From Polyangium spumosum (GTDB lineage: Bacteria; Myxococcota_A; Polyangia; Polyangiales; Polyangiaceae), in NCBI RefSeq assembly GCF_009649845.1, contig NZ_WJIE01000024.1, positions 1-64,000 of the forward strand: 64,000 nt of DNA. Reading direction: 5' to 3'. Positions 31,748-51,198 of the stretch are shown in pieces (the stretch's first letter is position 1; each line of letters starts with the position of its first letter). The position numbers were made by a program, and so were the translations under genes. The notes below the pieces were generated by a model that had not been told where the DNA came from, searched no databases, and saw only the letters and a list, made by a program, of their open reading frames with translations.

Positions 31748-34700
31748 ATGCCCATCGCCATGCCCTCCAAGATTCGGATCCTGTTCCTGGGAGCCAACCC
31801 CTCCGATACCACGCGTTTGGCGCTCGGGCGGGAGGTCCGCGAGATCACGCAGCGCCTTCGCGGAACACACGAAGGCGAGCGCTTCGAGATCGTGCAGGAG
31901 TGGGCCGTTCGTGTCGGCGACCTGCAGGCGGCGCTGCTCCGGCACAGGCCACAGATCGTCCACTTCTCGGGGCACGGGCGGAGCGAGCGGAGCGGCAGCT
32001 CCCCCGGTTCGATCGACGTCGCGCGGGAGATGTTGTCCGCCGATGCGTCGAGCGAGGAGGATCTCGACGGCGAGATCCTGGTCGAGGACGATGGTGGGAG
32101 AGCCAAGCCGATCCCCGCGTCTGCCCTGGCAAACTTGTTCGGGATCGTGGGCGGCGTTCGTTGTGTCGTGCTGAACGCCTGCCATTCTTCCGCCCAGGCG
32201 GAGGCGATCCAGCAGCACGTGGAGGCCGTCGTCGGCATGAGGCGATCGATCCATGACGCTGCGGCCGTCAGTTTTGCATGGGCATTCTACCAAGGGCTCG
32301 GGTTCGGAGCGTCGCTGAGCCAGGCGTTCGAGCTCGGCAAGAACCAGATCGAGCTGGCCGGATTCGGGGATGGTGAGGTGCCGAGGTTCCTGACACGGAG
32401 GCCCCCGAACATGCCCCGTGACTTCGGCGCCGCCGATTCCGTGCCGGCTCCATCTGCGTACGATGGGCCGGTTTCGAAGCGTGTCATGGTGGGTCGCGAG
32501 GAGGAGGACATCGTCGATCCATTCCTCACGCGTGTCGAGCGCATCGCGAAGCTGCGCCACCCGGGCGCGCGGATCACGCGCGGAGACGCGCCTTCACCGT
32601 TCGCGGGCGTGCTCGAAGTCGAGGTCGATGCCGGCGGTTTTTTCCGGATGAGCCTCGTCGCCGCGCTGGACCACGAGATCACGGAGGAGCTCGCGGCGCG
32701 TTTTTCCGCGGAGATCGACGGTCCCTTCCGCCGAGGCCATCCGCTGCTCCGCTCGACGCTGGTGCATCGTGGCCATGCCGCGCCGGTCGTGCTTCGCGCG
32801 GAGCTCGATCGCCGGGGCATCGAGCTCCAGACGTTCGACGGGTACCAGGGGCTCTTCGACCTCGAGCCTTATCTCGGCTGGCAGACGCGCGAGCTCGAGA
32901 GAAGCCCGGCGTACATCTCCACCACGTACGTCGATCCGCCTGCGTGGATCAAGATCGCGGGCAATCGCGAGCTCCAGCACACGGAAAACGCGCTGCAATC
33001 GATGTGGGAGCTTCTCGCGACGCCGGCGCAGCGGCGCTTCCTGCTCGTGCTCGGGGAGTTCGGGGCGGGCAAGACGTTCTTGCTCCGCGAGCTCTGCCGG
33101 CAGATGGTCGAACGCAAGCACCCCGTTTTGCCCGTGCTGCTCGAAATGAGCAAGCTCGAAAAACAGCACAGCCTCGCGGAGCTCATCGGCGCGCATTTCT
33201 CCCGCGCGGATGTCTCCGGGTACAACTACAAGGCCTTCGAGTACATGCTCGAAGAGGGGCGCGTCGCGCTGTTCTTCGACGGTTTCGACGAGCTCGCGGA
33301 CAAGGTCACGTACGACAGCGCGACCGGTCACCTCGAAACGGTGCTCTCGGCCGCGCGGGGGCAAGCGAAGGTGGTGCTCTCCAGCCGACGCCAGCATTTC
33401 CTGACGGAGGGTGAGATCCACAAGGCTGTGGAGCGTGAGTTCGCGCGGAAGGCCGAGAGCGCGGTGCACGGTGGGTATCGGCTCATCATGCTGGAGCCCT
33501 TCGGCGAGCCGCAGATCCGGCGGTATCTGCGTAACGTGCTCGTCGATGTACCGGCGGCCGAGGCGCGATACCGGTTGATCGACGAAGTGAAGGATCTGCT
33601 CGGGCTCTCGCACAACCCGCGTATGCTCTCGTTCATTGCGGACATCCCGGAGGAGTCGCTGCGGGAGGCAAAGGAGCGCTGGGGCGAGATCACCTCGGCG
33701 AGGCTGTACGAGCTCCTCGTGAAGCGATGGCTCGATGGGGAATACGAGCGCTCGCGGCGGCAAGGTTGGTCGAAAGGCATCTCGCGCGAGGCGCTCTCGC
33801 GGGGCGTGGCTTCGCTCGCCATCTCGATGTGGCACGCACGCGTGAAGACGGTCTCGAAGGACGAGATTCATGAAGGGATCGCGCAGGCGCTCGCGGCGCT
33901 CGGGGAGCCGGCGCTCGATCCGGCCGTGCTCATCCACCTCTTCGGCTCGGGGTCGCTTCTCGTGCGGGACGAGGAGGGTCGGTTCTCGTTCGTCCATCGG
34001 TCGGTGATGGAGTGGCTCGTCGCAAAACAAGCGGCCGACGAGCTCGTCCTGGGCCAGGATCCGCTGGCGCTCGTGGTCGATGAGATGAGCGCGCTGATGG
34101 CGGATTTTTTCGCGGCGATGGCAGGGAGAGACCGAGCCTCCACGTGGGCGCTGGAGAAGCTTGGCGGAGCGGAGGACGGCATCGTCCTGAGAAACCTGAC
34201 GCTCTTGCTCACGCGAATGGGCGCGTTGTTCGAGCGGGTGAACTTCGAGGGACAAGATCTCCGCGGGAGGGATTTTTCCAGGGTGGACTGGCGCGCCGCG
34301 AACCTTCGTGGCACGGATCTTCGTGGGGCGACGCTGAAGGGGGCGAACCTGCGGCGCGCCTCGCTCGTCGAGGCCAACCTATCTCGCGCGGACCTGCGGG
34401 GCGCCGACCTCGCGCGGGTGGATCTGGCGAGGGCCGATCTTTCGTTCGCCCGGGCGGCGAGCGCCGATTTTTCGGAGGCGAGGAACCTCGACCCTGCTCG
34501 ACTCCGCGGCGCGATCCTACTCGGGGCAAAAGGTATCCCGGAGGAACGGCACGAGGCCTTGCTCGCCGTGGGGGCCGTTCCCCCCGTTTTACGGAATGTC
34601 GAGCCGATGTATGCGGCAGCTTCGCCATGCAAGAGTGTCGCCTGGGCCCCGTCGGGTTCGCTGCTCGCTACGGCACACGGGGACGGTTTCATTTGGCTCG

Positions 34701-36631: not shown

Positions 36632-38317
36632 TCACGTCATCCGGCCGAGCGCCGCGCGTCCCGCGTCCACGAAGATGCCCACCCAGCGCTCGACCTCTTC
36701 ACGCGAAACACCGAAACGCGAAGCCACGGTCGCGGCCGTCGCCGTGCCCCGGAGCACCGCGAGCACCGCGTCTTCCCTGCGAACGCTCTCCTCCGTGCCC
36801 CTCGATGCCGCTCCTGCTGGCGCCGCATGTCGAATACCCGCAGGGCACCGCGCAATGGGCAGCCTCGCGGCCGGGTCGCCGAGCAGCACATAGGCCGCGA
36901 GATCCTGCCGTTGCATCCAGAGGTTGGCACGACGTACCCTGCTCGCCTGCTCCTCCACGAAATCGGAAGAGAGGCTCGCTCGATGTGCGCGCTCCTCGTA
37001 GGAGATCGTGAGCTCCGTGCTCACCGAACGAAAGAACCGCGCGATCTCGTGGTGCGCGACGCCGAACCGATGCCCGTGCACGAAGGCCTGCAAGATCCCC
37101 TGGAACCGTTCGGCGCGGCTCTTCGGGACGAGGCCTCCGCTTTCGAGGTCATAATCGAGGAAGCTCCATGTCCACGCGAGATCCACGTGACCCACCACGC
37201 CGAGCGGCCCCTCGGGGTTCGCGAGCGCGGCCTGCGGCAGGGCCGCGATGAAGGGCGGATCGCCTCGCTGGGGTAATGCGGCGAGCACCCCGTCCGCTGC
37301 GTTTCCGATCACGCCGAGCTCGTGGAGCCTGCTCAGCCAAGGCAAATACGCGCTGCGCGACGGCGTGCCAGCACCGTAACAAGCGAACATGAACCAGACG
37401 CCGCCGGGCAAAAACGGGCCGCGGCTGATGTCGTTCGCCGTGAGGAGGTCACCCTTGCGACCGAGGACCATCGCGCCCTGGTGAGCATGTTGCTCCTCGC
37501 GGGATCGCCATCCCGCCCTCGGAATCCCCGCGCCGTGGCTCATGGTGAAGAGCACCCCGGCGCGCGTGCGTGCCGCTTCGCGGAGCAAAACCCCGGCGGC
37601 GCTCGACAGGTCGAGCGCCGTACCCGCGGGATCCGTCGGGACCTCGACGATTTCCTCGGCGCCGAACGTGCCCGCGGCCTGGCCCTGCCGCGCCATTTCG
37701 AGGCTGGGTCGCACGAGATGGCGATCCCCCTCGACCATCGCCCGCGTGCCGTCCAGTACCGCATGATAAAGTGTCCGCGCGCGCGGCGCCTCCGTCGCGT
37801 CCGCCCAGCGGACCGCTTTATCGACGTAAGCCTCGTATCCGCGGTCGTCCCTGAATGCCAGTCGACCCACGAACACCTCGCCGCCGAGCATCTGCTGGAA
37901 GTCCCAGGAGATGAGCTCGGGGCCTCCGAGCAGGAGGAGATATCGAGGCCGCGCCGCCTCGCGCCGACCAACGGCGTCGCGATACTCTTTTTGAATCCAC
38001 GCCGCGACGGCGACGGGATCCATTCCGGGATCGACGCGGTACACGAGCGCGTCCTCCCCTTGCTCTTCCTCGCGCTTTTTTCGTAGCGGCTCGAGCAGGG
38101 AGAGCAAACGGTCGCCGGCGGGGCCTTTGGGGGCGACGAGGGCCCAGCGTTGCTCGGGCAGCGCGTCCGGCGGAGCGTGTACATTGGCCAGGCGGTGCAG
38201 AGCCTCGGGCGGCGCGCCCTGCGCGGGCGCGTCGAGCGTCGCGACGAGCGGGAGGCCTTCGTCGAGGATGGGGCGGTGATCGTCAGCGTGGGCGAGGAAG
38301 AGCTGGATATCGGTCAA
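36632..38317 (-). CDS. C25/caspase-fold cysteine protease with C-terminal HTH
   Basis: The start is a TTG at 38317 with GAGGG 5-7 nt upstream; no ATG fits without overlapping the upstream gene. The 561-aa protein has a His/Cys pair in the spacing of clan-CD proteases: TMSHGAG (about residue 255) and FMFACYGAGTPS (about residue 310), resembling gingipain (C25)-type enzymes. There is no signal peptide. The last ~45 residues (RREDAVLAVLRGTATAATVA, then FGVSREEVERWV) form a helix-turn-helix like those of transposase-type or effector-associated domains. It is convergent with the STAND gene and lies 110 bp downstream of the sigma54-driven lipoprotein gene, so it is probably co-transcribed with it. 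Protease activity is inferred, not certain. Confidence 0.65.
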   Translation of the reverse strand: MTDIQLFLAHADDHRPILDEGLPLVATLDAPAQGAPPEALHRLANVHAPPDALPEQRWALVAPKGPAGDRLLSLLEPLRKKREEEQGEDALVYRVDPGMDPVAVAAWIQKEYRDAVGRREAARPRYLLLLGGPELISWDFQQMLGGEVFVGRLAFRDDRGYEAYVDKAVRWADATEAPRARTLYHAVLDGTRAMVEGDRHLVRPSLEMARQGQAAGTFGAEEIVEVPTDPAGTALDLSSAAGVLLREAARTRAGVLFTMSHGAGIPRAGWRSREEQHAHQGAMVLGRKGDLLTANDISRGPFLPGGVWFMFACYGAGTPSRSAYLPWLSRLHELGVIGNAADGVLAALPQRGDPPFIAALPQAALANPEGPLGVVGHVDLAWTWSFLDYDLESGGLVPKSRAERFQGILQAFVHGHRFGVAHHEIARFFRSVSTELTISYEERAHRASLSSDFVEEQASRVRRANLWMQRQDLAAYVLLGDPAARLPIARCPAGIRHAAPAGAASRGTEESVRREDAVLAVLRGTATAATVASRFGVSREEVERWVGIFVDAGRAALGRMT

Positions 38318-38426
38318 GGGACCCTCGAATCGCTTCCATCGTCGTCGAGACGAGCGGAGCGCGCAACCCTCTTCGTGGCTTTCGTGCGCGCCCGGAGCGC
38401 GCGAGGGCCCCCATTGGATCGATCCG

Positions 38427-39197
38427 TCAGCCGCAGAAGCCGCTCCAGGACGACATGATGCCCGGAGGCGAGACGGACGCCGCGGACGAGCAGCTCGCGC
38501 CATAGCTTCCGCTCATCGTCACGCCATAGGTCCACGGGGTCGAGCAGACGAACCGCGACGAGGAATAGACCGGGGAGCAGCCGAAGTTCGTGCAGGCCTG
38601 CGCCGCGATCGTGAACGTCTGGCAGCCGCCGGTGCACGCGACCTGCGCGAGCGCGGCCGCGCCGTAGTACCCGGAGACGGCCGAGCTCGGGCCGGTATAA
38701 AAGCCGATGTTGCACGAGAGCGTCAAATTCGTATCGACCGGCGCAGCCGCGATGCTCTTCGCGGTCTCCTGGAGGTTCGCGAGCTGCGCCTGGAGCTGCT
38801 CGATCGCGTCGTCCACGGCCGGATCTTCCTCGACCTGCGCGGCGCTTCGCGCCTGGAGCTCGGAGAGCTCCTTTTCGGCTTGCTCGATCGCCCACTCGTG
38901 CCCCTCGGCGCCGACGACGATGCGGTTTCCGCCGTCCTCTGCCCCGTTCTCGAAGACGCCCGGGGCGAGCTCCTTCCACGCCGCGTTGGGCACGAGCGAG
39001 AGCGCCTCGCCTTCTCCCGTACGCTCGAGCCGCATTTCACTCCCCGTGGGGATGGCCAGCGCTTCGCTCTCGTCGATGAGCGACTCCTGGACGTTGTCGG
39101 GCCCCAACGAGGCGTCCATACAACCCGCCATCAGGGCGCTGCTGGCGATCAGGGCCGCGGAGAAGAAACGAATCGCGAAGGTCGAACGTGCATTCAT
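38427..39197 (-). CDS. Lipoprotein, 256 aa, under a sigma54 promoter
   Basis: It starts at ATG 39197 with AAGAGGAG upstream. The signal peptide ends in the lipobox LMAGC, so Cys26 should be lipidated. A coiled-coil segment follows (about residues 100-150, EQAEKELSELQARSAA, LQAQLANLQE), then a Cys-rich C-terminal domain of about 90 residues with Ser/Gly/Tyr-rich strands and eight or so cysteines (GCQTFTIAAQACTNFGCSPV). No family is recognised. A sigma54-type promoter (39251-39268) ends about 44 nt upstream. The C25-like protease follows 110 bp downstream on the same strand and may share the transcript. Confidence 0.8.
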   Translation of the reverse strand: MNARSTFAIRFFSAALIASSALMAGCMDASLGPDNVQESLIDESEALAIPTGSEMRLERTGEGEALSLVPNAAWKELAPGVFENGAEDGGNRIVVGAEGHEWAIEQAEKELSELQARSAAQVEEDPAVDDAIEQLQAQLANLQETAKSIAAAPVDTNLTLSCNIGFYTGPSSAVSGYYGAAALAQVACTGGCQTFTIAAQACTNFGCSPVYSSSRFVCSTPWTYGVTMSGSYGASCSSAASVSPPGIMSSWSGFCG

Positions 39198-39310: not shown

Positions 39311-39391
39311 GGCGTGACGCCGGGCGCTGACGCGTCAGGAGCCGGATTGGCGTCTATCGAGTGGGATTGTCGCGTCAGCGCCCGCTGACGC
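39311..39391. promoter_or_regulatory. Dyad cluster, putative sigma54 activator binding sites
   Basis: Three dyads occur: GGCGTGACGCC (39311-39321), CTGACGCGTCAG (39327-39338, a perfect 12-bp palindrome), and GCGTCAGCG-CC-CGCTGACGC (39372-39391). They share the half-site GCGTCAG/CTGACGC. They lie about 45-125 bp upstream of the sigma54 promoter at 39251-39268, the usual place for an enhancer-binding protein. The last one overlaps the end of the activator gene and could alternatively be part of its terminator. Confidence 0.65.
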
Positions 39392-41087
39392 CTGAAGTCA
39401 CGAGGCCGAGCTCTCGCACGCGGCGCAAGAGCGCCCGCTCGGAGACCTCGAGCCGCTCGGCCATGCGCGCGAGATCACCGCCGAGCTCACGGTGGCATTG
39501 AACGATCTCCTGCTCCGTGAGGTCACCCGCGGTGCGGAATCCAGGAAGTCGCTCGATGATCATGTAGATGGCTGCCCGCGAGATGCCGAGCTTCTCTGCG
39601 GTCGCGGCAAAATCCCAGCGACACGAGCGCAAGGCCTCCCGGAGCTCGGCCTCGGTGACGTCGGCGGGCTTTCGGCGAGATGCGCTGCGTGAACGGGACG
39701 GGCCCTCGTCGCTCGGGGCCTTGATGGCGGCAGGCGGAGGATCGGGCGCGGGGGCTTTCGGGGGATCGGGGGGCGCCTGCGGGATGGGCTGCGGGTTCTC
39801 CGGCTCTCGTGGAGGTTGCTTCACGAGCAGCCGCTCCACGGCGGGCGTCATGTCCGCGCGATTGCGCCCACGATTGCCGACGACGATTTGCCGAATGACG
39901 TTTCGGAGCTGTCGCACGTTGCCAGGCCAGTCGTAATCGACGAGGCGCGCGACGAGGGACGCGGGGACCCACGGCTTCGCGCCGCCAGTCGGCGCTGCGA
40001 GGCGCTGCAATTCCCCGATCTCTGCGAGGTCCTCGCGCAAGAACCGCACGAGGAGCCGCCCGATGTCATCCCGACGCTCGCGGAGCGGCGGAATCCATAT
40101 CTCGTACGCCGCGAGCCGGTTCAAGAGCGGCGCCCGAAACGACCCCGACGCGACCTTTCCCTCGAGATCCGCGTCGGTTGCAGCGACGACACGCACGTCC
40201 GTTTTCCGGAGCTGCGTGGAGCCCACGGTCTGGATCTCGCCCGTCTCGAGCGTACGCAGCAGCGCGACCTGGAGCTCGACCGGTGCCTCGCCGATCTCGT
40301 CGAGGAAAAGCGTGCCGCCGTGCGCCTGCTCGAAATACCCGACCTGACGCCGGATCGATCCGGTGTACGCGCCCTTCTCCGCGCCGAAGAGCTCGGAAAC
40401 GGCGAGCGATGGTGCAATGGCACCCAGGTTGACAGCGACGAACGGTTTGTCACGGCGTGGACTCGCACGGTGAACCGCGCGGGCGACGAGCTCCTTGCCG
40501 CTGCCAGTCTCGCCGCGGAGCAGGACGGGCAGGTCGAGATCGGCGATGCTCTGAATGTCCCAGAGCACGCGGCGGAGGCCGTCGCTCGCGCCCACGAGCT
40601 CGCGCGATTCGTCGCCCACGCCTCCGTCGAGGACGCCTCCGGGCGTGCCGACGTGATGTGCGAGAAGGACAACCCGGTGGCCGAGCTCGATCACGACGCC
40701 GCGAGCGAGCTCCTTGGCAGAGAGCATCGTGCTCCCGACGACCCGCTGACCGCGCACGGACACCGTGGTGCTGCTGTCGCCGATATCGATACGGACGCTC
40801 CCGTCGGATGCGGCCGAGAGCAGGATTGGTTTGCGGCTGAGGTGCTCGTCGCCGAGGGGCTCGCCGTCCCCGAGGGCGTCGGGAGGCGCGAACGCCGGCA
40901 AGGTGCGAGACAGCGCGAATGGGCGCCCCGGAGCGCCGTCGACGAGGACACGATCCCCCACGCGGTCGAGGACCGGGTGGTAAAGGACGGTCAAGGCAAG
41001 GGTGGGGGCGTCGTCGCCGGATGTGGTGGCGGTGCCGCGACCCACGAGGGTGGTGCGGGTGAACCCGGTTCTCCTGCCAGTGGGCAT
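39375..41087 (-). CDS. FHA-type sigma54-dependent transcriptional activator
   Basis: About 570 residues. Residues about 40-150 form a degenerate FHA domain (LSRKPILLSAASDGSVRIDI, where the usual SRxH has Pro for His), so phosphothreonine binding is uncertain. The AAA+ domain has Walker A GETGSGKE, the sigma54-contact loop as GAYTGS instead of GAFTGA, and Walker B GGTLFLDE. A Pro-rich linker leads to two consecutive Fis-like helix-turn-helices (WDFAATAEKLGISRAAIYMI and GGDLARMAERLEVSERALLR). The ATG at 41087 is preferred to an upstream ATG at 41126; neither has a strong ribosome-binding site. It lies among three sigma54 promoters with the same palindrome, so it is the obvious regulator of them. 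Input by a Ser/Thr kinase is likely for FHA activators. Confidence 0.88.
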   Translation of the reverse strand: MPTGRRTGFTRTTLVGRGTATTSGDDAPTLALTVLYHPVLDRVGDRVLVDGAPGRPFALSRTLPAFAPPDALGDGEPLGDEHLSRKPILLSAASDGSVRIDIGDSSTTVSVRGQRVVGSTMLSAKELARGVVIELGHRVVLLAHHVGTPGGVLDGGVGDESRELVGASDGLRRVLWDIQSIADLDLPVLLRGETGSGKELVARAVHRASPRRDKPFVAVNLGAIAPSLAVSELFGAEKGAYTGSIRRQVGYFEQAHGGTLFLDEIGEAPVELQVALLRTLETGEIQTVGSTQLRKTDVRVVAATDADLEGKVASGSFRAPLLNRLAAYEIWIPPLRERRDDIGRLLVRFLREDLAEIGELQRLAAPTGGAKPWVPASLVARLVDYDWPGNVRQLRNVIRQIVVGNRGRNRADMTPAVERLLVKQPPREPENPQPIPQAPPDPPKAPAPDPPPAAIKAPSDEGPSRSRSASRRKPADVTEAELREALRSCRWDFAATAEKLGISRAAIYMIIERLPGFRTAGDLTEQEIVQCHRELGGDLARMAERLEVSERALLRRVRELGLVTSGVSGR

Positions 41088-41202
41088 GCGCCGCCGATGG
41101 TAGGACGGGGGGAGCGGCGGGGGCAAGGGGAAGCGGCAGGGGATGTCGACGAACGCGGGCGAATGGCGTGTCAGCCGCCCCTCCCGGCGTCACCTCCGTT
41201 CA

Positions 41203-41399: not shown

Positions 41400-41415
41400 A
41401 GGCACGGAAGCTGCT
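41400..41415 (+). promoter_or_regulatory. Sigma54 (-24/-12) promoter for the lipoprotein at 41459
   Basis: AGGCACGGAAGCTGCT: GG at 41401-41402 and GC at 41413-41414 with exactly 10 nt between. The core GGCACG-N4-CTGC equals that at 39251 and 47183. The predicted start (near 41426) lies 3' of the first ATG in frame (41423), which supports the downstream start codon at 41459. Confidence 0.75.
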
Positions 41416-41458
41416 CTGGGCAATGACAGGACAATCGACCCGTTCTCGAGAGGTAACC

Positions 41459-41959
41459 ATGCTCCACGACATTCGATACGCGATGATGCTCTGTGCCCCC
41501 TTCGCAGCGCTGGCCATGGGCTGCGGGACGACCGCCACCATAACTCGCATCAATGAACCCGAGATCGAGGGGAAGATCGTCTCTTCCGCGGACGACATGC
41601 TCCTCGTCGAGACGCGGGCAGGCAACGAAATGGTTGCGACACGGAACGTCACGGACATCGATCATCCGGGGAACGTGGCTGCCACAATCGGCACCCTGCT
41701 CACCGGCTACGGCGTCGCGAACATCGTCGTCGGCGCGCCGGATTGCGAAAGGGGCGGAGCGGCATACTGCTTCGGGGTATTCCTGCCGGCGACGATCGGG
41801 CTGCCGCTGATGGCCTGGGGCTTCGCGACATGGGGCCGATCCAAATACGCCGCGAGCACAGGCTCGAAGTCGAGCGACGTGAGCTTCAACGTGGTGCCCG
41901 CGGCGTCGTTCCAGAAAAACAACACTTTTCTGGGGGCGAACGCGACGGTCTCCTTCTGA
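41459..41959 (+). CDS. Small lipoprotein, 166 aa
   Basis: The ATG at 41459 follows GAGAGG and begins a signal peptide with a lipobox-like LAMGC (Cys22). An ATG at 41423 in the same frame is rejected because the sigma54 start lies beyond it. The mature part has a beta-rich domain (EPEIEGKIVSSADDMLLVET) and a hydrophobic Gly-rich segment that may insert in a membrane (AATIGTLLTGYGVANIVVGA, then FGVFLPATIGLPLMAWGFAT). No family is recognised. It is convergent with the TPR-CHAT gene. Confidence 0.8.
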   Translation: MLHDIRYAMMLCAPFAALAMGCGTTATITRINEPEIEGKIVSSADDMLLVETRAGNEMVATRNVTDIDHPGNVAATIGTLLTGYGVANIVVGAPDCERGGAAYCFGVFLPATIGLPLMAWGFATWGRSKYAASTGSKSSDVSFNVVPAASFQKNNTFLGANATVSF

Positions 41960-41993
41960 GCCGCTCTCGAGCTACGGCGTCACGTCGAGCGGC
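41960..41993. terminator. Candidate terminator between convergent genes
   Basis: GCCGCTC (41960-41966) and GAGCGGC (41987-41993) form a 7-bp stem around the stop codons of the convergent lipoprotein and TPR-CHAT genes. No T-tract is visible, so it may not be an intrinsic terminator. Confidence 0.35.
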
Positions 41994-44900
41994 GCGTCGT
42001 TGCCCGAGGCGATGAAGCTGGCCCAGTAAAACGGGTGCGCGCGGTCGGGCCGCTCCAGCATTTCGATCTGGCTCTGGCGCAGTGCTTCCACGCGACCGAC
42101 CCCGGCCAGGAGCTTCTCGTAGTAGGCCTCCATCAGCTCGCACGTCGCCGCATCATCGACGCGCCACAAGCTCATCACCTGCGTCTCTGCGCCGGCCATG
42201 ACCAGGGCGCGCCGCAGACCGTACACGCCGTCGCCGCTGGAAATCGTTCCCACCCCCGTCTCGCACGCCGACAAGACGACGAGCTTCGTCCCCATCAGGT
42301 CGAGTTGCGAGACTTCCAGCGCCGTCAAGATACCATCATTCTGATCGCCGTGCCGGCGGTTGGCGCAGGCCAACGCGATGCCCGAGCGTAAAAGCGGATT
42401 GTCGATGAATGATTTCGGGTGCGTCGTTCCACGCACCGCTGCGTCCACGTCGTCCGGCGGAGGCGGGAGGAAAAACCCGTGCGTCGCGATATGGAGGAGC
42501 TTTGGTCCGGCGAGCCTCGTGATGGCCGTCTTGGTCGCGGTCGTTCCCGCGAGGAGCGTGGCACCGGGAATCTTTCGTGCAAGGGCGCGGCCTTCCCGCT
42601 CAGCGAAGTGTAGCGGTTGAAACCCGGTCTCACCCGCGGCGTCGGTCGACTTGCCATAGTCGGGCGCTGCAACCACGACGGGACCTTGTCGCCAGGCGGC
42701 CTGTTTGGCCAGGCGCAACAGATCCCGGCCGCTCGCGAGGTAGTTGAATTGGTACCGCTCGACGAGGTAGCGCCCCTCCTCGTCCACCAGGGCGCCGAAG
42801 GGTACGAGGTTGAGCAGTCCATCGGGGCTCAGCAGGATCCGACGAGTCGGACCCAGCAACCGGCGGATGGGTTGCAGGAGCATCCGATCGAGCTCGCGTG
42901 CAGGTGCCCGATGATCCGCGATGGGCGTGCTCGAGACATCGAATTCGCGCGCAGGCGGCCTCGGAGCGGCGGCAGGGTTTCCAAGGGTCGAAGCCAGCTC
43001 GACGACCGCCCAATCGATGGGCTCAGCTTCGCCGAGATCGACCCAGGCGATCTCGCCCTGACGATGGAGCACGTAAGCCACATAGCGTGGTTTGCCCCAA
43101 AGATCCGTTTGGGGGTCGAATGGCCGGTAGCAAACCATGTCCACGAGGACCGCGCCCTCGGGAATCTCGGCCTGTACCTGCTCGATCGTGACGGGCAGCA
43201 GCTCACCCTGGCGCTCGACGGCGCGACGGCTGATGTCGGCCTCGAGATTCTGGCGCTCCTCATCGAGACGAGCCAGGGTCGCACGGTGGTCGCGATGCAG
43301 TGTATCGCCTGGCCCTCGCCACATGAAGGCACTGTACTCGGTGATGACGCATCGCAGCCGGTCAAGCCGCTCCTGATCCGCCACGGTGAGGCGACGGCGC
43401 AGCGCAGCGAAGCTGTCCGTCATCGCATCGAGCACCCGACCTTTGCGGTTCAGGATCGTGGTCAGCGCGAGCCGCGTCGCCTCCTGGGCGTCGGATGCGA
43501 ACTGGACATGCAGGGAGATGACCTGATGGGTGCAGCCTCGTAGCGTATCCATATAGGCACGCTTCTGCTCGTCCGATCCGGTCATCAACAGAACCGCGGC
43601 GTTGCGATCCTGAATCGCCGCGGCGCGCTCCATCTGTCGCATGGCCTCCGTGGTTTCACCAGCGGCCAGGAATAGCGCCGCGAGGTTGTTGCGCCAGGTG
43701 GCCACGCGGGGGTGGTCGGCCCCCCGCGTATTCTCCAGGGTAGCGATGGCGCGCAGGAGGGGCGGCTCCGCCTTGGCATAATCCCCTTTCCTGTAGTGCA
43801 GCATCGCGAGGTTGTGATGCGCGTTCGCTAGATCGTCGGGGTGCTGGGACCCCAGCGCATTCTCCAGGAGGACGATCACGCGTTGGTACATCGGCTCGGC
43901 CTTGTCGTAGTCCCCTTTTCGAACGTTCAGCAAGGCCAAGTTGCTGAGCGATTTGGCCACGAGGGGGTGCTCCGGACCCAGCGTGTTCTCCAGGAGGGCG
44001 AGCGCGCGCTGGTAGAGTGGCTCAGCCCTCGCGTGGTCCCCTTTCGTTCTATACAGCTCAGCGAGGTTGTTGAGCGATTCGGCCACGTCAGGATGCTCGG
44101 GTCCCCAGGCCTTCTCCCGGATGGCGAGAGCGCGTTGCCAGAGTGGCTCGGCCCTCACGTAGTCCCCTTTCAAGTAGTGCAGCCTTGCGAGATCGCCGAG
44201 CACAGTGGCCACGTCGGGGTGTTCGGGTCCAAATGCCTTCTCCACAATGGCGAGCGCGCGCTCATGGAGGGGTTCCGACCGGGCGTAGTCCCCCTTCTGT
44301 TCGTGCAGCATCGCAAGGCTATTGAGCGATTGGGCCACGTACGGATGGTGGGGGCCCAGCGCTCGCTCCCGAAGGGTGAGCGCGCGCTGATGAAGCGCCG
44401 CGGCCTTGGGGTTGTCTCCTTTCCAGTACCAGAGCATCGCCAGGCCGTTGAGCAATTGTGCCACATCCGTATGTTCCGGCCCGAGCGCACTCTCCAGAAG
44501 AGCGAGTTCACGTTCCGCGAGCGGGATAGCCTCATCATACTTCCGCTCTCCGTAGAGGCGGGCGACCATATCGTCGAGCTGCCGAGCCTCCTCGAGCGCG
44601 CTCGCCGGATCCCCCGCCCCACCGGGCAGCTCCGGTCTCGACGCCTTCTCCAGAATGGCGACGGCACGCTCGACCAGCGGCTTCGCTTTGTCCCCGTCCC
44701 CTTTTAACTCGTACAGCAGCGCGAGGTTGTTGAGCAGGGTCGCCACGACCGGGCTCTCCGGCCCCAGCGCATTCTCCAGAATCGTGAGCGCCCGCAAATA
44801 AAGCGGCTCCGCCTTATCGAGGTCCCCTCTCGTCCTGTGAAGGCCCGCAACGCTGCTGAGCGATCCGGCCACGTCGGGGTGTTCTGCACCGAGGGCGCTC

Positions 44901-45019
44901 TCCAGCATGGATAACGCCCGTTCGGCCAGCGGAATCGCCGCATCCACCCTCCCGACGTCGGCGAGCTCCATGGCCTCGTCGTGCAGCTTCTCGGCCTGCG
45001 CCACGAACGAAAAATTCAT
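41972..45019 (-). CDS. TPR-CHAT protease
   Basis: The start is ATG 45019 (GTGAGG upstream); the frame remains open further upstream but there it only overlaps the caspase gene. The 1015-aa protein has about ten TPR-type repeats of 42 residues (pattern AEPLxxRALAIxEKAxGPEHPxVA) over the first ~430 residues, a helical connector, and a C-terminal CHAT protease with His in LLHIATHGFF and Cys in LVVLSACETGVG, plus the typical LSPDGLLNLVPFGAL and SLWRVDD segments. TPR-CHAT is the layout of Csx29 and of many uncharacterised cyanobacterial and myxobacterial proteins, where the TPRs sense and CHAT cleaves a partner. It begins 8 bp after the caspase gene, so the pair is an operon. No CRISPR array is nearby. 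Confidence 0.9.
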   Translation of the reverse strand: MNFSFVAQAEKLHDEAMELADVGRVDAAIPLAERALSMLESALGAEHPDVAGSLSSVAGLHRTRGDLDKAEPLYLRALTILENALGPESPVVATLLNNLALLYELKGDGDKAKPLVERAVAILEKASRPELPGGAGDPASALEEARQLDDMVARLYGERKYDEAIPLAERELALLESALGPEHTDVAQLLNGLAMLWYWKGDNPKAAALHQRALTLRERALGPHHPYVAQSLNSLAMLHEQKGDYARSEPLHERALAIVEKAFGPEHPDVATVLGDLARLHYLKGDYVRAEPLWQRALAIREKAWGPEHPDVAESLNNLAELYRTKGDHARAEPLYQRALALLENTLGPEHPLVAKSLSNLALLNVRKGDYDKAEPMYQRVIVLLENALGSQHPDDLANAHHNLAMLHYRKGDYAKAEPPLLRAIATLENTRGADHPRVATWRNNLAALFLAAGETTEAMRQMERAAAIQDRNAAVLLMTGSDEQKRAYMDTLRGCTHQVISLHVQFASDAQEATRLALTTILNRKGRVLDAMTDSFAALRRRLTVADQERLDRLRCVITEYSAFMWRGPGDTLHRDHRATLARLDEERQNLEADISRRAVERQGELLPVTIEQVQAEIPEGAVLVDMVCYRPFDPQTDLWGKPRYVAYVLHRQGEIAWVDLGEAEPIDWAVVELASTLGNPAAAPRPPAREFDVSSTPIADHRAPARELDRMLLQPIRRLLGPTRRILLSPDGLLNLVPFGALVDEEGRYLVERYQFNYLASGRDLLRLAKQAAWRQGPVVVAAPDYGKSTDAAGETGFQPLHFAEREGRALARKIPGATLLAGTTATKTAITRLAGPKLLHIATHGFFLPPPPDDVDAAVRGTTHPKSFIDNPLLRSGIALACANRRHGDQNDGILTALEVSQLDLMGTKLVVLSACETGVGTISSGDGVYGLRRALVMAGAETQVMSLWRVDDAATCELMEAYYEKLLAGVGRVEALRQSQIEMLERPDRAHPFYWASFIASGNDAPLDVTP
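43600..44990 (-). repeat. TPR repeat array within the TPR-CHAT gene
   Basis: Repeats of about 126 bp encode 42-residue helical units with the motif ALGPEHPDVAxxLNNLAxLY(x)KGDYxKAEPL. About ten can be counted, one of them interrupted by a 30-residue spacer (near 44610). DNA similarity between units is moderate, lower than in the WD40 array. Confidence 0.8.
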
Positions 45020-45027
45020 GGACGTCC

Positions 45028-47025
45028 TCACGACCTCCCCCCGCCCCGCACGATCTCCACCATCACCATCGTGGCCCTCCACCACTCCGCAGGCTCCTCC
45101 TCGTCCGGCAACATCTCCCTCCGCGTGCTGCCCATCGCCTCCTCGAACGACTCCTTCACCCGCAAGGAGCCGAGATCCACCTCGGGTGACGCCGTCCCCA
45201 CGACGATGAGCCGATCGACATTGGAGGAGCGACCCGTCGAGACCCTGCACGAAAATGCTCGGCCGAGATGGCCTCGCATCCAGAACGCCTGCCGCCGCCA
45301 GGGCGCGACCTCGAGCTGCGTCTGTCCGAGGATCTCCACCCTCCCGCTCGCAGCGCAATTGATCACCTGCGCAAAGATGGGCGAAGACGAACGGTTCTCC
45401 ACGGAAAAACATACCGGTTGACCATCGACGAGCCGATACCGATACCGGTGCTCGGGATCGGGCTCCGCCTCGGGGAGCGGTGGGTCGGTAAACTCTTCGG
45501 GCATGAGCTCCCCTGCGTTCCGCGCGTCGAGCACCCGCATGCGCAGGATGCCCGGCCCGTCGTGGCATCGTCGGACGAGGCGAAGCGGCAGGTTGTAACG
45601 CGCATAATGCAAAAGACCCCGGAGGAGCGCGGATCGGTCGTCCCCCGGCACCCACGCGAGCGGGGGTTCCCCCTCGGATCCGGCCGCGCCGGGCCCGTAC
45701 ACCGCGTCGCCGATCCAGCGCCGCCCGTCGGGCGAACGACCCACGAAGACCTCGCACACACGCTCCCCACGCCCTTCGGCGGGCACGACCGAAAATGGTC
45801 CCTCCGCCGAGAGCCACCGCGCGAGCTCGGCGTCGAAGGGATCGAGGCCCACGACCAGGGCGTCCTCTCTCCCGGGTTTGACGAGACGACCCCTCGCCCC
45901 CTCGCCGAGGCGAAACGCTTCCCCGACGGGCCCCGCCAGGGCAGTCGAAAGGGTCGCGCTCTCGACGCTCAGGAGCCCGCGCCTCGCGCCGAGCTCCTCG
46001 GAAGAATGTAACGGAGGGAAAAACGATGGCGTCGGGCCGTAGATCGCGACCGTGGCCCCGCGCCCGAGGCCGACCAATGAGCCGGCCTGGATCCGATATT
46101 TTCCGTCGACCTCGCTGACCGAATACCCGGGGTCCTGCCTCCGGAAGGGTCCGCCGAACAGACGCCTCTCGTTCCGCCCGAGGAGACACGGGTGCTGGCT
46201 CGGAAACAAGGACGTGACGCGCGCGCGGAGGGCTTGCCAGACATCCGCCCAGCGGAGGGCATGGATCCTCTCGTCGGGCTCTCGGGCGAGCAAGTCGAGG
46301 AGCGCCGCCGTGAATGCCCCGTGACGAATGCCACCGGCATCGGGCCCCTCGTGCGCGGATTCGCTCGATTGCGCGGACGCGACGACCAGGAAACCAGGAT
46401 CCGAGGGATCAAACGACGAGAGGAGCCCCGCATCGAGGTCCCCACCGCGTCGCAAGGCGACCGGGGAAACCACGTCGGGGTCGTCGACGGCGCAGAACCG
46501 GACGGCGCTGTCCGACGGGCGCAAAGCGGAGCGCGTCGCGCCCGCGGAGCAACAACAATCCAGGACGACCGTGAGGTCAACGGTGCGCGCGGCGATACGA
46601 CGGAGCATGTCGTTGACCTCGTGATCGAAGAGCAAGCTCCCGCCCGCGAGCGCGTCGACCGGGACGAGCGCCTCGCGCGCGACCCTCGTGCCCCGCGGCA
46701 AGACCTGCGTGCCATGTCCCGAATAATGGATGAAGACCCGATCACCCGGACGGACCCGCTCCCCTGCGAGCGCTTCGAGCGCAGCGCGGAGGTTCTCCAA
46801 TGTCGGCTCGCCCTCCGGGAGCCGCGGTCGCCTCGATGACACCGGGTGACGCGCCACGAGCTTCGTGATCGAATCGGCTGGGATCGAGAGACGGTCGAGC
46901 AAGAGCGCCTCCAGCGCGTCGACATCGTTGGCGCAGCCGTAGAGCGGATCGACGCATGGATAGGCGTCGATGCCGACGAGCAGGACATGGGAGCGGGTTG
47001 ATTCCTCGCCGGAGTAGACGGTCAT
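45028..47025 (-). CDS. Caspase-family (C14) protease with long C-terminal domain
   Basis: The N-terminal ~240 residues are a metacaspase/C14 domain: SHVLLVGIDAYPCVDPLYGC opening, catalytic His in FIHYSGHG, catalytic Cys in VVLDCCCSAG. The following ~420 residues are beta-rich and unrecognised; they hold segments such as VEILGQTQLEVAPWRRQAFW that resemble the DUF4384-like domains often found behind bacterial caspases, though this is weak. The start ATG 47025 gives the usual 10-12 residues before the first strand; an upstream GTG at 47082 is possible. No signal peptide is present. It is translated just ahead of TPR-CHAT, suggesting a two-protease cascade. The dyads at 47113-47145 lie in its promoter region. 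Confidence 0.88.
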   Translation of the reverse strand: MTVYSGEESTRSHVLLVGIDAYPCVDPLYGCANDVDALEALLLDRLSIPADSITKLVARHPVSSRRPRLPEGEPTLENLRAALEALAGERVRPGDRVFIHYSGHGTQVLPRGTRVAREALVPVDALAGGSLLFDHEVNDMLRRIAARTVDLTVVLDCCCSAGATRSALRPSDSAVRFCAVDDPDVVSPVALRRGGDLDAGLLSSFDPSDPGFLVVASAQSSESAHEGPDAGGIRHGAFTAALLDLLAREPDERIHALRWADVWQALRARVTSLFPSQHPCLLGRNERRLFGGPFRRQDPGYSVSEVDGKYRIQAGSLVGLGRGATVAIYGPTPSFFPPLHSSEELGARRGLLSVESATLSTALAGPVGEAFRLGEGARGRLVKPGREDALVVGLDPFDAELARWLSAEGPFSVVPAEGRGERVCEVFVGRSPDGRRWIGDAVYGPGAAGSEGEPPLAWVPGDDRSALLRGLLHYARYNLPLRLVRRCHDGPGILRMRVLDARNAGELMPEEFTDPPLPEAEPDPEHRYRYRLVDGQPVCFSVENRSSSPIFAQVINCAASGRVEILGQTQLEVAPWRRQAFWMRGHLGRAFSCRVSTGRSSNVDRLIVVGTASPEVDLGSLRVKESFEEAMGSTRREMLPDEEEPAEWWRATMVMVEIVRGGGRS

Positions 47026-47112
47026 GAGCGTTCGATGAAAGCAAAGGACGAACCTCCCGTAAAGTGAGGAGACAGCGTTCACTCAGCGGTGAATTGACAC
47101 ACATCAAACCGG

Positions 47113-47145
47113 TTGACCCGTCAGCCTCGGTCACTGACGCGTCAG
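47113..47145. promoter_or_regulatory. Two palindromes, putative sigma54 activator sites
   Basis: TTGACCCGTCAG (47113-47124, imperfect) and CTGACGCGTCAG (47134-47145, perfect) have centres 21 bp apart, two helical turns, as expected for a pair of activator dimers. They lie about 40-70 bp upstream of the plus-strand sigma54 promoter, and also upstream of the minus-strand caspase gene. Confidence 0.7.
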
Positions 47146-47182
47146 CCGGTGCCACGCGGGCTGCGTTCCTGGGTGACAATCC

Positions 47183-47199
47183 AGGCACGAACGCTGCAT
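47183..47199 (+). promoter_or_regulatory. Sigma54 (-24/-12) promoter for the gene at 47261
   Basis: AGGCACGAACGCTGCAT: GG at 47184-47185 and GC at 47196-47197 with 10 nt between; the core GGCACG-N4-CTGC is identical to the other two sites. The expected start near 47209 leaves a 52-nt leader before ATG 47261. Confidence 0.8.
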
Positions 47200-47260
47200 G
47201 ATGGCCTGCTCATACGCGGCGCGATGAAGACGCGCCAAGCTCCGGACTGGAGGAAGGTTC

Positions 47261-47914
47261 ATGACGACGACGGGCCTGCTCGATCTCGGCGCTGCCGAGA
47301 TCATCGATCGAAGGACGGGAGAACCTCTCGGGTATGCATTCACCGTGGCGCACGGCAAAGGCCAGCTCCAGCGCTGGCTCCTGTTCCGGCACCCGCAGAA
47401 CGAGCTCGAGATCCGGCCGCCCCCCGCGTCCATGGCGAGCTGGTCCCTCGCCGACTGGCAGGCGAACGTGCCTGGCCTCTGGAGGCCCAATGGATTTTAC
47501 GTCTGGGCGCAGGCGGACGTGTACCAGCAAGGCGGCACGTATGACGGCGTGACCTGGACCCAGCTCCCGCCCGCCTCTCGCCTCCCCAAACCCACGTTCC
47601 CCGAGCGCCCCGGGAGCAACTACCAGCTCGATTGGACGGGCAAGGTCGTCGACGTGCTCCAGGAAGATTGGCGCGGCCGTGCCTTCGTCGTGCGGGGCTT
47701 GACGCAGGAATCGAGCATCGAGTACTGGTCCTTGCCGGCGCGATATCAGCCGGCAGGGAACACCCGTACCGCCGCCATCGCCGTCGGGGTCGAGGAAGCC
47801 TCCTCGCTCGATGTGTTCGTCGAGGAATGCAACAGGACGTGGAGCTCCGGTGGCACGTTCGTCATCACCGGCTGCATCAATTACCACGGCCCTGCGGCGC
47901 CCTTCGCGCCCTGA
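47261..47914 (+). CDS. Hypothetical protein, 217 aa, under a sigma54 promoter
   Basis: ATG 47261 follows GGAGGAAGG. The soluble protein is not recognised; it has no signal peptide, is rich in Trp, Tyr and Pro, and has repeated WxL-type beta strands (LQRWLLFRHPQNELEI, FYVWAQADVYQQGG, SIEYWSLPARYQP). A C-terminal segment carries two cysteines (VEECNRTW, VITGCINYHG). The kinase-ATPase gene starts 44 bp downstream on the same strand and is probably in the same transcript. Confidence 0.75.
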   Translation: MTTTGLLDLGAAEIIDRRTGEPLGYAFTVAHGKGQLQRWLLFRHPQNELEIRPPPASMASWSLADWQANVPGLWRPNGFYVWAQADVYQQGGTYDGVTWTQLPPASRLPKPTFPERPGSNYQLDWTGKVVDVLQEDWRGRAFVVRGLTQESSIEYWSLPARYQPAGNTRTAAIAVGVEEASSLDVFVEECNRTWSSGGTFVITGCINYHGPAAPFAP

Positions 47915-47958
47915 TCTGCCCCGTTGCATCGATCGCCGAGGCCAAGTACGCTCGGGGC

Positions 47959-50900
47959 ATGCCCCCGGCGGTCGACGCAGCCGCGACGCAGACGGAGAGC
48001 GAGCCACTCGAGGAGGACTCGTCCGCCGCGGCTCATGAAACGGCCCTGGCAGACACCTTCCTCGCCGATCCGCCAGAGCACGCAGAGGCCGCCTCCGCGA
48101 GCCTCGACGAACAGGGACGCACGATCGAGGATCGTTATACCCTCGTCAGGCACCTCGGCCGCGGCGCACACGGCGACGTATGGGCGGCCGACGATCGTAT
48201 CCTCGGCGAGCAGGTCGCGCTCAAGTGGATGCGCGTGGCCCATGGATCCATGCGGGCCCGTATTCGCCGCGAGATCACGACTTTGCGCATGCTGCGGTTT
48301 CCCGGCGTCGTGCGGCTGATCGACGAAGGCATCGCCGATGGAAGGCCCTTCCTCGTGATGGAGCTCGTCGAAGGCCGGCCTTTCCCGGGCGCGGAGAAGC
48401 CCCCCGGGACGCCGCGCCGCATACCATGGCGAACCCTCGCGGGTTCGGCGCTCGCGCTTCTGGAGACCCTCTCGCACGTCCACGCCGCCGGCGTCGTGCA
48501 CAGGGACCTCAAGCCCGAAAATGTGCTCGTGCGCCCCGACGGGCGCCCCGTCGTGCTCGATTTCGGTATTTCACGACTGCAGGCGCCCGGCTCCGAACGG
48601 TTGACGAGCGCAGGGCAGCTCGTGGGCACGCCGCTTTATGTCGCGCCCGAGCAGATTCTCGGTCGTACGGTCGACGCACGGACGGACCTCTACGCCATCG
48701 GCGTGATGCTCTATGAATCGCTCACGGGTCGCGTGCCCCACGAAGCGAAAGACGTGACTTCGATGCTGCGCGCCCGCCTCGTGAAGCCGGCGCTGCGTGT
48801 GGAGGAGCTCGCCCCGGAGCTGCCGGCCGTCGTGGCTCGGGTCATCGATCGATTGCTCGCGACACGCATCGAGGATCGATTCGGCTCTGCTGCGGAGGTG
48901 CTGGCAGCGCTTCGAGGCGAGTCGACGAACCCTTCCGCGAGGCTCCCGTGGCTCGGTCGTCGCACGGCCGTGCACGAGGTCGTCGACGCCGTACAGGCGG
49001 GGCGCTCCGTCGATATCGTGGGCCCTCGCGGGTCGGGCCGTTCGCGTTGCATGCAGGAGGCCTCCCGCGAGCTCGCGGCCCGAGGTTGGTCTGCGGCGTG
49101 GACGCGTCCCTCGCGGGCACCACTCGGCAGTATCCTCCCATTGCTGGGAGAACCAGCCGGCGGAGCCGAGCTGCGACTCGAAAGTGCGCTCGCATGGGCA
49201 GACGACGCGCTGTCGAGGGCGCTCGGCGAACGCGCCGTCCTGTTCGCAGATGACGCGGAGATGCTCGATCCCTGGTCCGCGAAGATCCTCGCGCGGTATC
49301 GGGAGGTCCCGGGCGGAGTCGTCCGCTCCCTCGTGTCGCGGCCTCCCGGGGTATCGTCCGACGAGGTCGTGGAGGTCGCGCCGCTCGACGAGGCCGTGCT
49401 CGCGCAGCTCTTTTCTGGCCCCGACAAGCTATTTCATCTGCGGGAGGACGCTGCGCGGGCGTTGTGGGAGCGGACGGACGGGCTCCCCGCGCGAATCGAG
49501 GCGGAGCTCCTCGCGTGGACACACCTGGGCCTCGCTCGCCGCGACGGTCCGCTCTTCGCGGTCGATCGTGACGCCCTGAGCCGGCTCCACGCGGGGCTCG
49601 TGGTCGTTCCGAGCGCGGCAATGACGGCGAACGACCTCGACGATCCCCTGCACGTCGAGGAGACGCTGCGCTGGCTCTCGCTCGCCGGTCGCCCCCTGAC
49701 ACTCATGCAGCTCGCGCGCGTGATGCAGTGCGCCCCGTGGCGCGTCGAGGCAGCCTGTGAAGCGCTCGTTCTTCGTGGTGCAGTAAGGCGCCAGAGGCAC
49801 GACAGCTTCGAGGGGCGCGGGCGCGTGGATTATCCGTGGAATGAGCTGCAGCGCGCCGAGGCGCACCGGGCCATCGCAGCCATCCTCGAGCCCGGCGACG
49901 AGGGACGGCTCCATCACCTGCTCTCCGCGGGGCTCGCCCGGGAGGCGGCGCGAGAAGCAGCCGTCGCCGCGCGGCGATATGCGGTCGAGGGAGACCTGGA
50001 CGCCGCGACGGCAGCGCTCGCCGAAGGCCTCCGGGCTGCGCGCGAACAAGGCGCCACGCCCGAAGAAGCGGAGATCCTGACCACATGGGCGAAGAGCGCC
50101 TTTGCGCAGTACACACCGCGCGCGCTCGATCGGGTCCTCTACGAGCTCACGCGCGCTCGAACACGCGGCGCTGAGCTGGATCGGCTCGAATCTCTGCTCC
50201 GCGCGGGGCTCGCTGCGCCGGGGGCAGGCGGGCTCCATGCCCTCGAAATGGCTGACGACATCGAACCGTTTCAGGATCCGGAGCTCGAGCGGCGACGACA
50301 TCGAATACGCATCACCGCGGTGGCGGCCCGCGCGTCGGCTTCACTCCTCGCGGAGGTGCTCGAGGAGGTCGAGGCCTGGGCAGAACAGAGCGGCCATCCG
50401 CTCGCCCAGCTCAGCCTGGTCGAGGGGCGCGCGCTCCAGCGATACCACGAGGGTCGTTTCCAGGAAGCAGCGGCGCTCCATGCCCAGGCCGCGACGCTCG
50501 AGCCATGGAAGACGGGGCGCATCTCGCTCACGCTGAACAGCGCCTCTGCATTGCTGGAAGCGTTCCGCCACGCCGAGGCAGCCGAGCGCGCCACGGAGGC
50601 GCGCGCGCTCGCAGCGCAATGCCGGGACCCCTACTGGGAAGGGCGCGCCGAATGGTTGATTCGCGCGGCGCGGTATCGAATGGGAGAGCTCGAGGGACCC
50701 GATCACGAGTTCGTCGACGCCGTCGCCCGGGTCGGCGCGCTGGACCTGGAAGCTCTCGTTTGCCTGAACGAGGCAGCAGCGGCCATGCGCGCGGGGATGC
50801 TGGGCGAGGGCGCGGCGCTCGCGGGACGGGCAGCCTCGGTATGGCTCGGGATGGGACGGCCTTTCGCGACGATGCTGGCCCGCGCGCTCGCCATCGCGTG

Positions 50901-51198
50901 TGGCGCGCCCCCGGACGCGGGAGAAGTGGAGACACTCGCGGAGCGGGCGGTGGCTTGCAAGGTCCCTGGCCTCGGGATTCAGGCGCTTGGCCTGCTGGGT
51001 CGAGTTTCCCCCGAAATGAAAGGTCTACGGAAGGATGCGATCGCGGGGCTCGTGCGGGAGATCCCGAGGACAAACTGGGATCGGCGGATGGATGTGCTCT
51101 CCGTGAACGAGTCGCTGGAGGGAGTCGTCGACACGCCGGGGGAGAGGGTCGGTGACGACGATGGCAACGACGGCCCGGAACGTCCCGCCGCTTGTTGA
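47959..51198 (+). CDS. PknK-like Ser/Thr kinase with AAA-type ATPase and helical repeats
   Basis: The start ATG 47959 gives 1079 residues. An acidic N-terminus (about 50 residues) is followed by a kinase domain with GRGAHGDVWAA, VALKWM, HRDLKPENVLV, DFGISR and GTPLYVAPEQ. A NTPase region begins near residue 335 (VDIVGPRGSGRSRCMQEASR), where the P-loop has Arg in place of the usual Lys, and Walker B-like VLFADDAEML follows, so ATP hydrolysis may be impaired. A winged-helix-like segment (about 560-620) and about 450 residues of helical repeats complete the PknK/STAND-type architecture. It is soluble. It probably shares the sigma54 promoter at 47183 and could phosphorylate the FHA activator, closing a loop; that is inference. 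Confidence 0.88.
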   Translation: MPPAVDAAATQTESEPLEEDSSAAAHETALADTFLADPPEHAEAASASLDEQGRTIEDRYTLVRHLGRGAHGDVWAADDRILGEQVALKWMRVAHGSMRARIRREITTLRMLRFPGVVRLIDEGIADGRPFLVMELVEGRPFPGAEKPPGTPRRIPWRTLAGSALALLETLSHVHAAGVVHRDLKPENVLVRPDGRPVVLDFGISRLQAPGSERLTSAGQLVGTPLYVAPEQILGRTVDARTDLYAIGVMLYESLTGRVPHEAKDVTSMLRARLVKPALRVEELAPELPAVVARVIDRLLATRIEDRFGSAAEVLAALRGESTNPSARLPWLGRRTAVHEVVDAVQAGRSVDIVGPRGSGRSRCMQEASRELAARGWSAAWTRPSRAPLGSILPLLGEPAGGAELRLESALAWADDALSRALGERAVLFADDAEMLDPWSAKILARYREVPGGVVRSLVSRPPGVSSDEVVEVAPLDEAVLAQLFSGPDKLFHLREDAARALWERTDGLPARIEAELLAWTHLGLARRDGPLFAVDRDALSRLHAGLVVVPSAAMTANDLDDPLHVEETLRWLSLAGRPLTLMQLARVMQCAPWRVEAACEALVLRGAVRRQRHDSFEGRGRVDYPWNELQRAEAHRAIAAILEPGDEGRLHHLLSAGLAREAAREAAVAARRYAVEGDLDAATAALAEGLRAAREQGATPEEAEILTTWAKSAFAQYTPRALDRVLYELTRARTRGAELDRLESLLRAGLAAPGAGGLHALEMADDIEPFQDPELERRRHRIRITAVAARASASLLAEVLEEVEAWAEQSGHPLAQLSLVEGRALQRYHEGRFQEAAALHAQAATLEPWKTGRISLTLNSASALLEAFRHAEAAERATEARALAAQCRDPYWEGRAEWLIRAARYRMGELEGPDHEFVDAVARVGALDLEALVCLNEAAAAMRAGMLGEGAALAGRAASVWLGMGRPFATMLARALAIACGAPPDAGEVETLAERAVACKVPGLGIQALGLLGRVSPEMKGLRKDAIAGLVREIPRTNWDRRMDVLSVNESLEGVVDTPGERVGDDDGNDGPERPAAC

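Follow-up and report, generated by a model that had tools for sequence, protein, structure and literature searches.

Layout of the gene pair

The window, a stretch of 64,000 nucleotides of the Polyangium spumosum contig NZ_WJIE01000024.1, contains two adjacent protease genes on the minus strand, a C14 caspase followed by a TPR-CHAT protease. Their origin and possible joint action are the subject of this analysis. The pair has the following parts:

45028..47025, minus strand: C14 caspase (metacaspase-like), 665 aa, PF00656; ATG at 47025, TGA at 45030-45028
46552..46554, minus strand: codon of caspase C158, the presumed catalytic Cys (the H104 codon is at 46714-46716)
45031..46158, minus strand: conserved C-terminal region of the caspase, residues 290-665 (~375 aa), the basis of profile A2
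45020..45027, minus strand: intergenic gap of 8 nt from the caspase stop to the TPR-CHAT ATG, GGACGTCC
41972..45019, minus strand: TPR-CHAT protease, 1015 aa; ATG at 45019, TAG at 41974-41972
43674..44920, minus strand: TPR array, repeat families D1-D3, mostly with a period of 126 nt (42 residues)
41999..42907, minus strand: CHAT domain (Pfam)

The caspase matches PF00656 over residues 12-283 with 66.4 bits against a Pfam cut-off of 21.4 and is thus a member of C14; its closest PDB sequences are the metacaspases 9n3d, 8a53 and 6w8s. H104 and C158 are invariant across the eight rows of alignment A1, and the dyad motif is present in 11 of 11 members of the caspase family described below. In the second protein, Pfam finds TPR_12 in 8 stretches and TPR_10 in 10 (many TPR models match), and CHAT (PF12770) with 274.9 bits at residues 707-1009. 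The latter positions refer to translation P0001, which has two additional residues ahead of the ATG, and dyad positions are given in the 1015-aa numbering. The CHAT dyad is also intact (H847, codon 42479-42481; C919, codon 42263-42265). For both domains, the His and Cys named here are those that we take to be catalytic in the respective families.

The first-pass annotation of this DNA had described the two genes as an operon, with the caspase stop 8 nt before the TPR-CHAT start. The coordinates confirm the distance, and the sequence supports the arrangement. Because the downstream neighbour is convergent and the upstream neighbour divergent, the unit consists of these two genes, which, judging from their spacing, are probably co-transcribed. 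An alternative TPR-CHAT start is possible at an in-frame GTG at 45031, which overlaps the caspase stop.

Gain of the TPR-CHAT gene behind a resident caspase

The locus was compared with those of five congeneric Polyangium genomes (G001-G005; the window's own genome is G000). Full-length orthologues of the caspase with 75-85% identity were found in four of them (G001, G003, G004, G005) and none in G002. The same four genomes maintain the order 178-aa gene, caspase, 217-aa gene and kinase. Conserved gene order had been named by the first-pass annotation as one test of its proposal, and this pair failed it: in 19-kb stretches around the caspase, none of the four congeners has a TPR-CHAT gene, neither adjacent to the caspase nor elsewhere at the locus. 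Instead, the caspase stop and that of the convergent gene are 9-13 nt apart. For the TPR-CHAT protein, the best relatives among the congeners are encoded on other contigs or distant from the caspase locus. A wider scan of genome contigs yielded a single locus, in Polyangium sp. y55x31. The flanking genes and the joint of the insertion are as follows:

41960..41974, no strand assigned: left-hand joint of the inserted gene, made up of the TPR-CHAT stop and a 12-nt spacer, compared with congener G005
41423..41959, plus strand: 178-aa protein, convergent with the pair, syntenic with the caspase in G001, G003, G004 and G005
47261..47914, plus strand: 217-aa protein, divergent from the caspase, found in the four caspase-bearing congeners and missing together with the caspase from G002
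47956..51198, plus strand: Ser/Thr protein kinase with AAA region, syntenic flank
39375..41126, minus strand: sigma-54 activator, syntenic flank

At the left joint, the final six coding letters of the TPR-CHAT gene, its CCG codon and the stop, together with the 12-nt spacer equal the G005 caspase end and its spacer in 17 of 18 letters. The caspases end in GRP-stop in G001 and G004, GGP-stop in G005, GA-stop in G003 and GRS-stop in the window, where the TPR-CHAT protein ends in DVTP-stop. The simplest reading is that the TPR-CHAT gene was inserted within the last caspase codon and came to use the former Pro and stop codons as its own end. On the level of sequence, the comparison shows an insertion; the gene was probably gained behind a resident, vertically kept caspase, and in this lineage only. 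Deletion in the congeners was considered and rejected as less parsimonious, since the same deletion would be required in four genomes, including G001, the sister of G000 by its flank genes.

The history of the caspase itself appears more complicated. Between G000 and G001 the flank genes are 93-96% identical and the caspase only 85%; the first ~110 residues of the G000 caspase are ~90% identical to G005 and G003 and ~75% to G001. In a tree built from three flank genes, G000 and G001 form a group with a support of 100, whereas the caspase tree does not resolve the placement of G000 (support 54). From this conflict in identities and trees it follows that the caspase tract recombined in G000 or in G001. 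The caspase gene has the look of a mosaic produced by recombination, the TPR-CHAT gene may have arrived together with the recombined tract, and conceivably the whole caspase/TPR-CHAT tract was imported from an unsampled donor. Composition gives no signal of foreign origin (the G+C content at third codon positions is 0.78 in the TPR-CHAT gene and 0.77-0.84 in ten neighbouring genes). A transposon was also discarded: apart from the TPR repeats, a repeat scan of 41400-47300 brought up nothing but short imperfect pairs, and no flanking duplication was recognised.

G001 carries two further insertions at the same locus. One, located between the genes for the sigma-54 activator and the 178-aa protein, comprises an operon in which the gene for a CHAT protein of 959 aa overlaps that of a small caspase by 4 nt, and an unclassified 1248-aa open reading frame. 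The other, between the caspase and the 217-aa gene, consists of a kinase-TPR gene and a gene for a CHAT protein of 416 aa. Counting the window's TPR-CHAT gene, this one locus holds three different CHAT genes in the two sister genomes, each at a position of its own.

Protease neighbours of caspases in the class

In a set of 39 genomes, Pfam detected at least 69 caspase domains (casp2 of G001 and G003, see below, was missed) and 92 CHAT domains. Six of the 69 caspases have a CHAT within 4 kb, compared with ~0.3 expected under uniform placement. Subtilases, used as a control, are within 4 kb of a CHAT in 2/150 cases among the matches listed (319 in all; Fisher p 0.013). When the loci of all 92 CHATs were scanned with our own C14 model, 8 caspase genes came up, none of them more than 4 kb from a CHAT and two of them missed by Pfam; our own CHAT model recovered 85 domains in 79 of 88 stretches. 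Besides the window pair, there are four kinds of co-directional CHAT-caspase pair in the class, two of which are kept between two species:

CHAT959-casp2, in G001 and G003: CHAT first; 86% and 91% identity
CHAT58-casp58, in G003 and G004: CHAT first; 88.5% and 81.9% identity; gaps of 17 and 19 nt
ECF sigma, caspase, CHAT, in G257 (L083:10968-14341): caspase before CHAT; 15 nt
Caspase, EAD5-CHAT, unclassified gene, HerA/AAA NTPase, in G043 (L203:264-6246): caspase first; caspase and CHAT overlap by 4 nt

The search for conserved pairs in other genomes, which the first-pass annotation had recommended, was therefore unsuccessful for the window pair and successful for other CHAT-caspase pairs. The caspase of the EAD5 pair is a 46% relative of casp2. 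At E 1e-15, relatives of casp2 were found in 9/317 class genomes, three of which (G001, G003, G043) have a CHAT nearby, within the ~1.5 kb inspected on each side. A relative of casp58 in the window's own genome (50%) has no CHAT58 alongside.

The window caspase also belongs to a narrow family, defined by its C-terminal region. The first-pass annotation had put this region at 420 aa; the part beyond the caspase domain measures ~380 aa (284-665). Sequence searches gave it no assignment: in eight members there is no widely common Pfam family at E<=10, and there is no PDB sequence match at E<=10. An AlphaFold model from a two-row alignment (the window and Polyangium sp. y55x31) reached a mean pLDDT (predicted local distance difference test) of 29.7. 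DUF4384 gave no Pfam match, and a single profile-profile comparison with ten DUF4384 rows, run without a control, gave 18% probability and E 2.8e-4. Profile A2 matches 10/317 class genomes at 11 loci. In a phylum sample that overlaps the class sample, 8/377 genomes match, the three outside the class being weak partial matches.

At 7 of the 11 family loci, a second C14 or CHAT protease is encoded within 5 kb or fused to the caspase:

G000: TPR-CHAT
G001: divergent CHAT
G023: WD40-caspase 28 nt downstream
G143: second caspase and nSTAND1 in the same reading frame, on a contig of 4 kb only
G314: CHAT ~2 kb off on the opposite strand, with one intervening gene
G257, two loci: second caspases, plus a SIR2-CHAT

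In the 39-genome set, 63 caspases lie outside the family, and 7 of these have such a neighbour (against 7/11, Fisher p 4e-4, a value that includes four more closely inspected loci from outside this set and treats relatives as independent). Within the 39-genome set alone, the comparison is 3/6 against 7/63 (p 0.036). The two-protease logic of the first-pass annotation thus gains support as a general feature of the context, through these loci and the recurring CHAT-caspase pairs, even though this particular pair is not conserved.

A reading in which the two proteases are parallel effectors, expressed from one promoter under the same stress and acting on separate targets, would account for the operon spacing and the two intact dyads. 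The 217-aa gene, which co-occurs with the caspase in the congeners, could then encode the target or regulator instead. Taken alone, this reading leaves the two-protease fusion of G143 and the paired caspases of G257 unexplained, and we regard it as improbable. The 217-aa protein itself has no family assignment, its gene shares a divergent region of 235 bp with the caspase, and the two are co-present or co-absent in all five congeners, which makes it a candidate substrate or regulator of the caspase.

Some further features of the family were observed. In G257, the two loci (L082:7477-15783 and L083:1605-7642) are 20 kb apart and each contains a family caspase and the same type of second caspase; the SIR2-CHAT gene is present in one of these two paralogous loci. 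Simple tandem duplication is not favoured as their origin, as the partners are alike across the loci (36% over 710 aa) far above the level of their neighbours. The family caspases at G314 L081:6035-9289 and G257 L082:9056-12037 have a common N-terminal extension of ~370-400 aa, for which no Pfam family is reported. Directly upstream of the family caspase, G043 (L047:7867-8832) and G023 (L048:11041-11823) encode astacin-like metalloproteases that are 61% identical.

A possible two-step protease switch and its rivals

In the reading that we favour, the TPR array would bind a ligand, so that the TPR-CHAT protein serves as sensor and initiator. Its CHAT protease would then switch on and cut the caspase encoded next to it. 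The cut would probably fall in the weakly conserved linker that joins the catalytic Cys to the second half of the caspase domain (~residues 165-215), and the cleaved caspase would act as executioner. Across the family, the caspase would be the constant component and the second protease the one that is exchanged. CHAT was chosen as the initiator because the repeat array is on the CHAT protein, because the caspase is constant and its partner variable, and because known CHAT cascades start with CHAT. Also speaking for this reading are the spacing with both dyads intact, the insertion at the caspase stop, the recurring second proteases and CHAT-caspase pairs, and HetF as a CHAT-TPR protease with a substrate. 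Sensing by the TPRs, the cleavage and its direction, and the biological outcome are all inferred, which leaves the two-step protease switch a plausible proposal without proof. The whole chain, from a resident caspase with an inserted TPR-CHAT gene in a two-gene operon to a CHAT sensor-initiator acting on a caspase executioner, is put forward tentatively, at rather less than even odds.

Several observations weigh against this cascade. The pair occurs in one genome only. The four closest TPR-CHATs (two in G001, one each in G003 and G004) have no C14/caspase within ~6 kb, and neither do the two TPR-CHAT paralogues in the window's own genome. The family caspase can work alone, because in G003, G004 and G005 (3/5 Polyangium loci) and in G043 there is no C14/CHAT within 5 kb. 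Finally, the enrichment of CHATs near caspases is modest once one homologous pair is collapsed (5/68 versus 2/150, Fisher p 0.03), and signalling and defence genes cluster anyway.

The first two of these points also speak for the TPR-CHAT gene being a passenger, i.e. a member of a Polyangium gene family that came to lie behind the caspase through illegitimate or homologous recombination and uses the caspase promoter without any mutual action of the proteins. CHAT domains are numerous (8 in the window's own genome, 6-13 per congener), and the locus is recombinogenic, with a mosaic caspase and two other insertions in G001. Less easily explained in this way are the clean insertion, which preserved both frames with a spacing of 8 nt, the excess of CHAT genes beside caspases over uniform placement, and the three different CHAT genes around one locus in two sister genomes. 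We consider a passenger a serious possibility, a little short of an even chance and about as likely as the favoured cascade.

The cascade might also run in the reverse order, with the caspase cutting the TPR-CHAT protein and thereby activating or removing it. Pair order gives no decision on the direction: the caspase gene is first in the window, in the EAD5-CHAT pair of G043 and in one G257 locus, while CHAT is first in the CHAT959-casp2 and CHAT58-casp58 operons. The putative sensing array, however, is located on the CHAT protein, and in the SAVED-CHAT precedent CHAT is reportedly the upstream enzyme. The reverse order thus seems quite unlikely.

For the favoured cascade, the first-pass annotation had drawn an analogy to Csx29-Csx30. 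Csx29 of the type III-E Craspase resembles the window protein in having TPRs followed by a CHAT with its dyad, and a profile of nine CHATs weakly matches the Csx29 structures 7x8a and 8d9f (E ~2e-4). The partners differ: in the window it is a protease, whereas Csx30 is not known to be one, and neither Cas7-11 nor Csx30/31 was recognised alongside. Among the ten proteins encoded in 31748-53418, no cas7-11, csx30/csx31 or any other cas gene was recognised; no genome-wide search for cas7-11 was made. Csm1-type Cas10 (TIGR02578) has no match in the window's own genome; the Cmr2-type model was not searched. PADLOC matches to RtcR--CARF_AAA_HTH on the sigma-54 activator are confined to its AAA part.

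The analogy is thus a weaker fit than the SAVED-CHAT cascade of type III-B CRISPR (Steens et al. 2024), which is the nearest known logic. There, the SAVED-CHAT protease starts a proteolytic cascade (PMC11417357, PMC11229360). The likeness would lie in a CHAT protease with a sensor part heading a cascade, a role that is proposed for the window pair. The first target of the SAVED-CHAT protease is reportedly a prokaryotic caspase. Unlike that protease, the window protein carries TPRs and is without SAVED, according to Pfam and to a PADLOC search that gave no family at E<=0.01 with a library including a SAVED_CHAT model.

CRISPR-free relatives of this arrangement are also described. HetF of Anabaena is a CHAT-TPR protease, CRISPR-free, which cleaves PatU3 (PMC8406250, PMC12288457); it combines CHAT and TPR in one protein as the window TPR-CHAT does, but has a transmembrane part, and the target given there is not a caspase. 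The NTP-dependent conflict systems (VMAP/vWA, EACC1, EAD) are presented as having caspases in multicellular bacteria and sensor repeats (PMC7159879, PMC8195603), and caspases in the VMAP and vWA components as nearly always co-occurring (PMC7159879). The related pair in G043 bears EAD5, whereas in the window pair Pfam finds no domain of the VMAP, vWA, MoxR or EAD kind, and the EACC1-type caspase model NF047832 scores 51.8 bits, below its cut-off of 140. CHAT-headed cascades in type III CRISPR and paired caspases in VMAP are already known, and the window pair belongs neither to Craspase nor to SAVED-CHAT. No paper on such a CHAT-caspase pair was found in the literature searched.

A more general version of the favoured cascade would see CRISPR-free CHAT-caspase modules in Polyangia, in which the executioner is kept and the sensor-bearing second protease (TPR-CHAT, CHAT, WD40-caspase, caspase-STAND) is exchanged by recombination, so that a single output, death or signalling, is connected to new inputs. 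In that case, the window would be one such exchange with a readable joint. We regard this as speculative and rather doubtful. If CHAT does activate the caspase, cascades of the SAVED-CHAT kind would be a general bacterial module with swappable sensors, beyond CRISPR, and comparable to the way in which animal caspases divide into initiators and executioners. Test sets for this are at hand in the family, since the same caspase occurs without a partner, with CHAT and in fusion with a second caspase. Should the cascade prove wrong, the locus remains a dated example of operon origin.

Two further genes of the window lie on the sigma-54 activator side. Positions 31748-36616 encode a 1622-aa protein composed of CHAT, NACHT-like NTPase, pentapeptide and WD40 parts, with a PF12770 match and intact motifs, and G003 and G005 have relatives of it at the corresponding end of the locus. 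The 623-aa protein encoded at 36632-38503, which matches Peptidase_C25 weakly and below the cut-off and ends in a helix-turn-helix region, is syntenic in the congeners.

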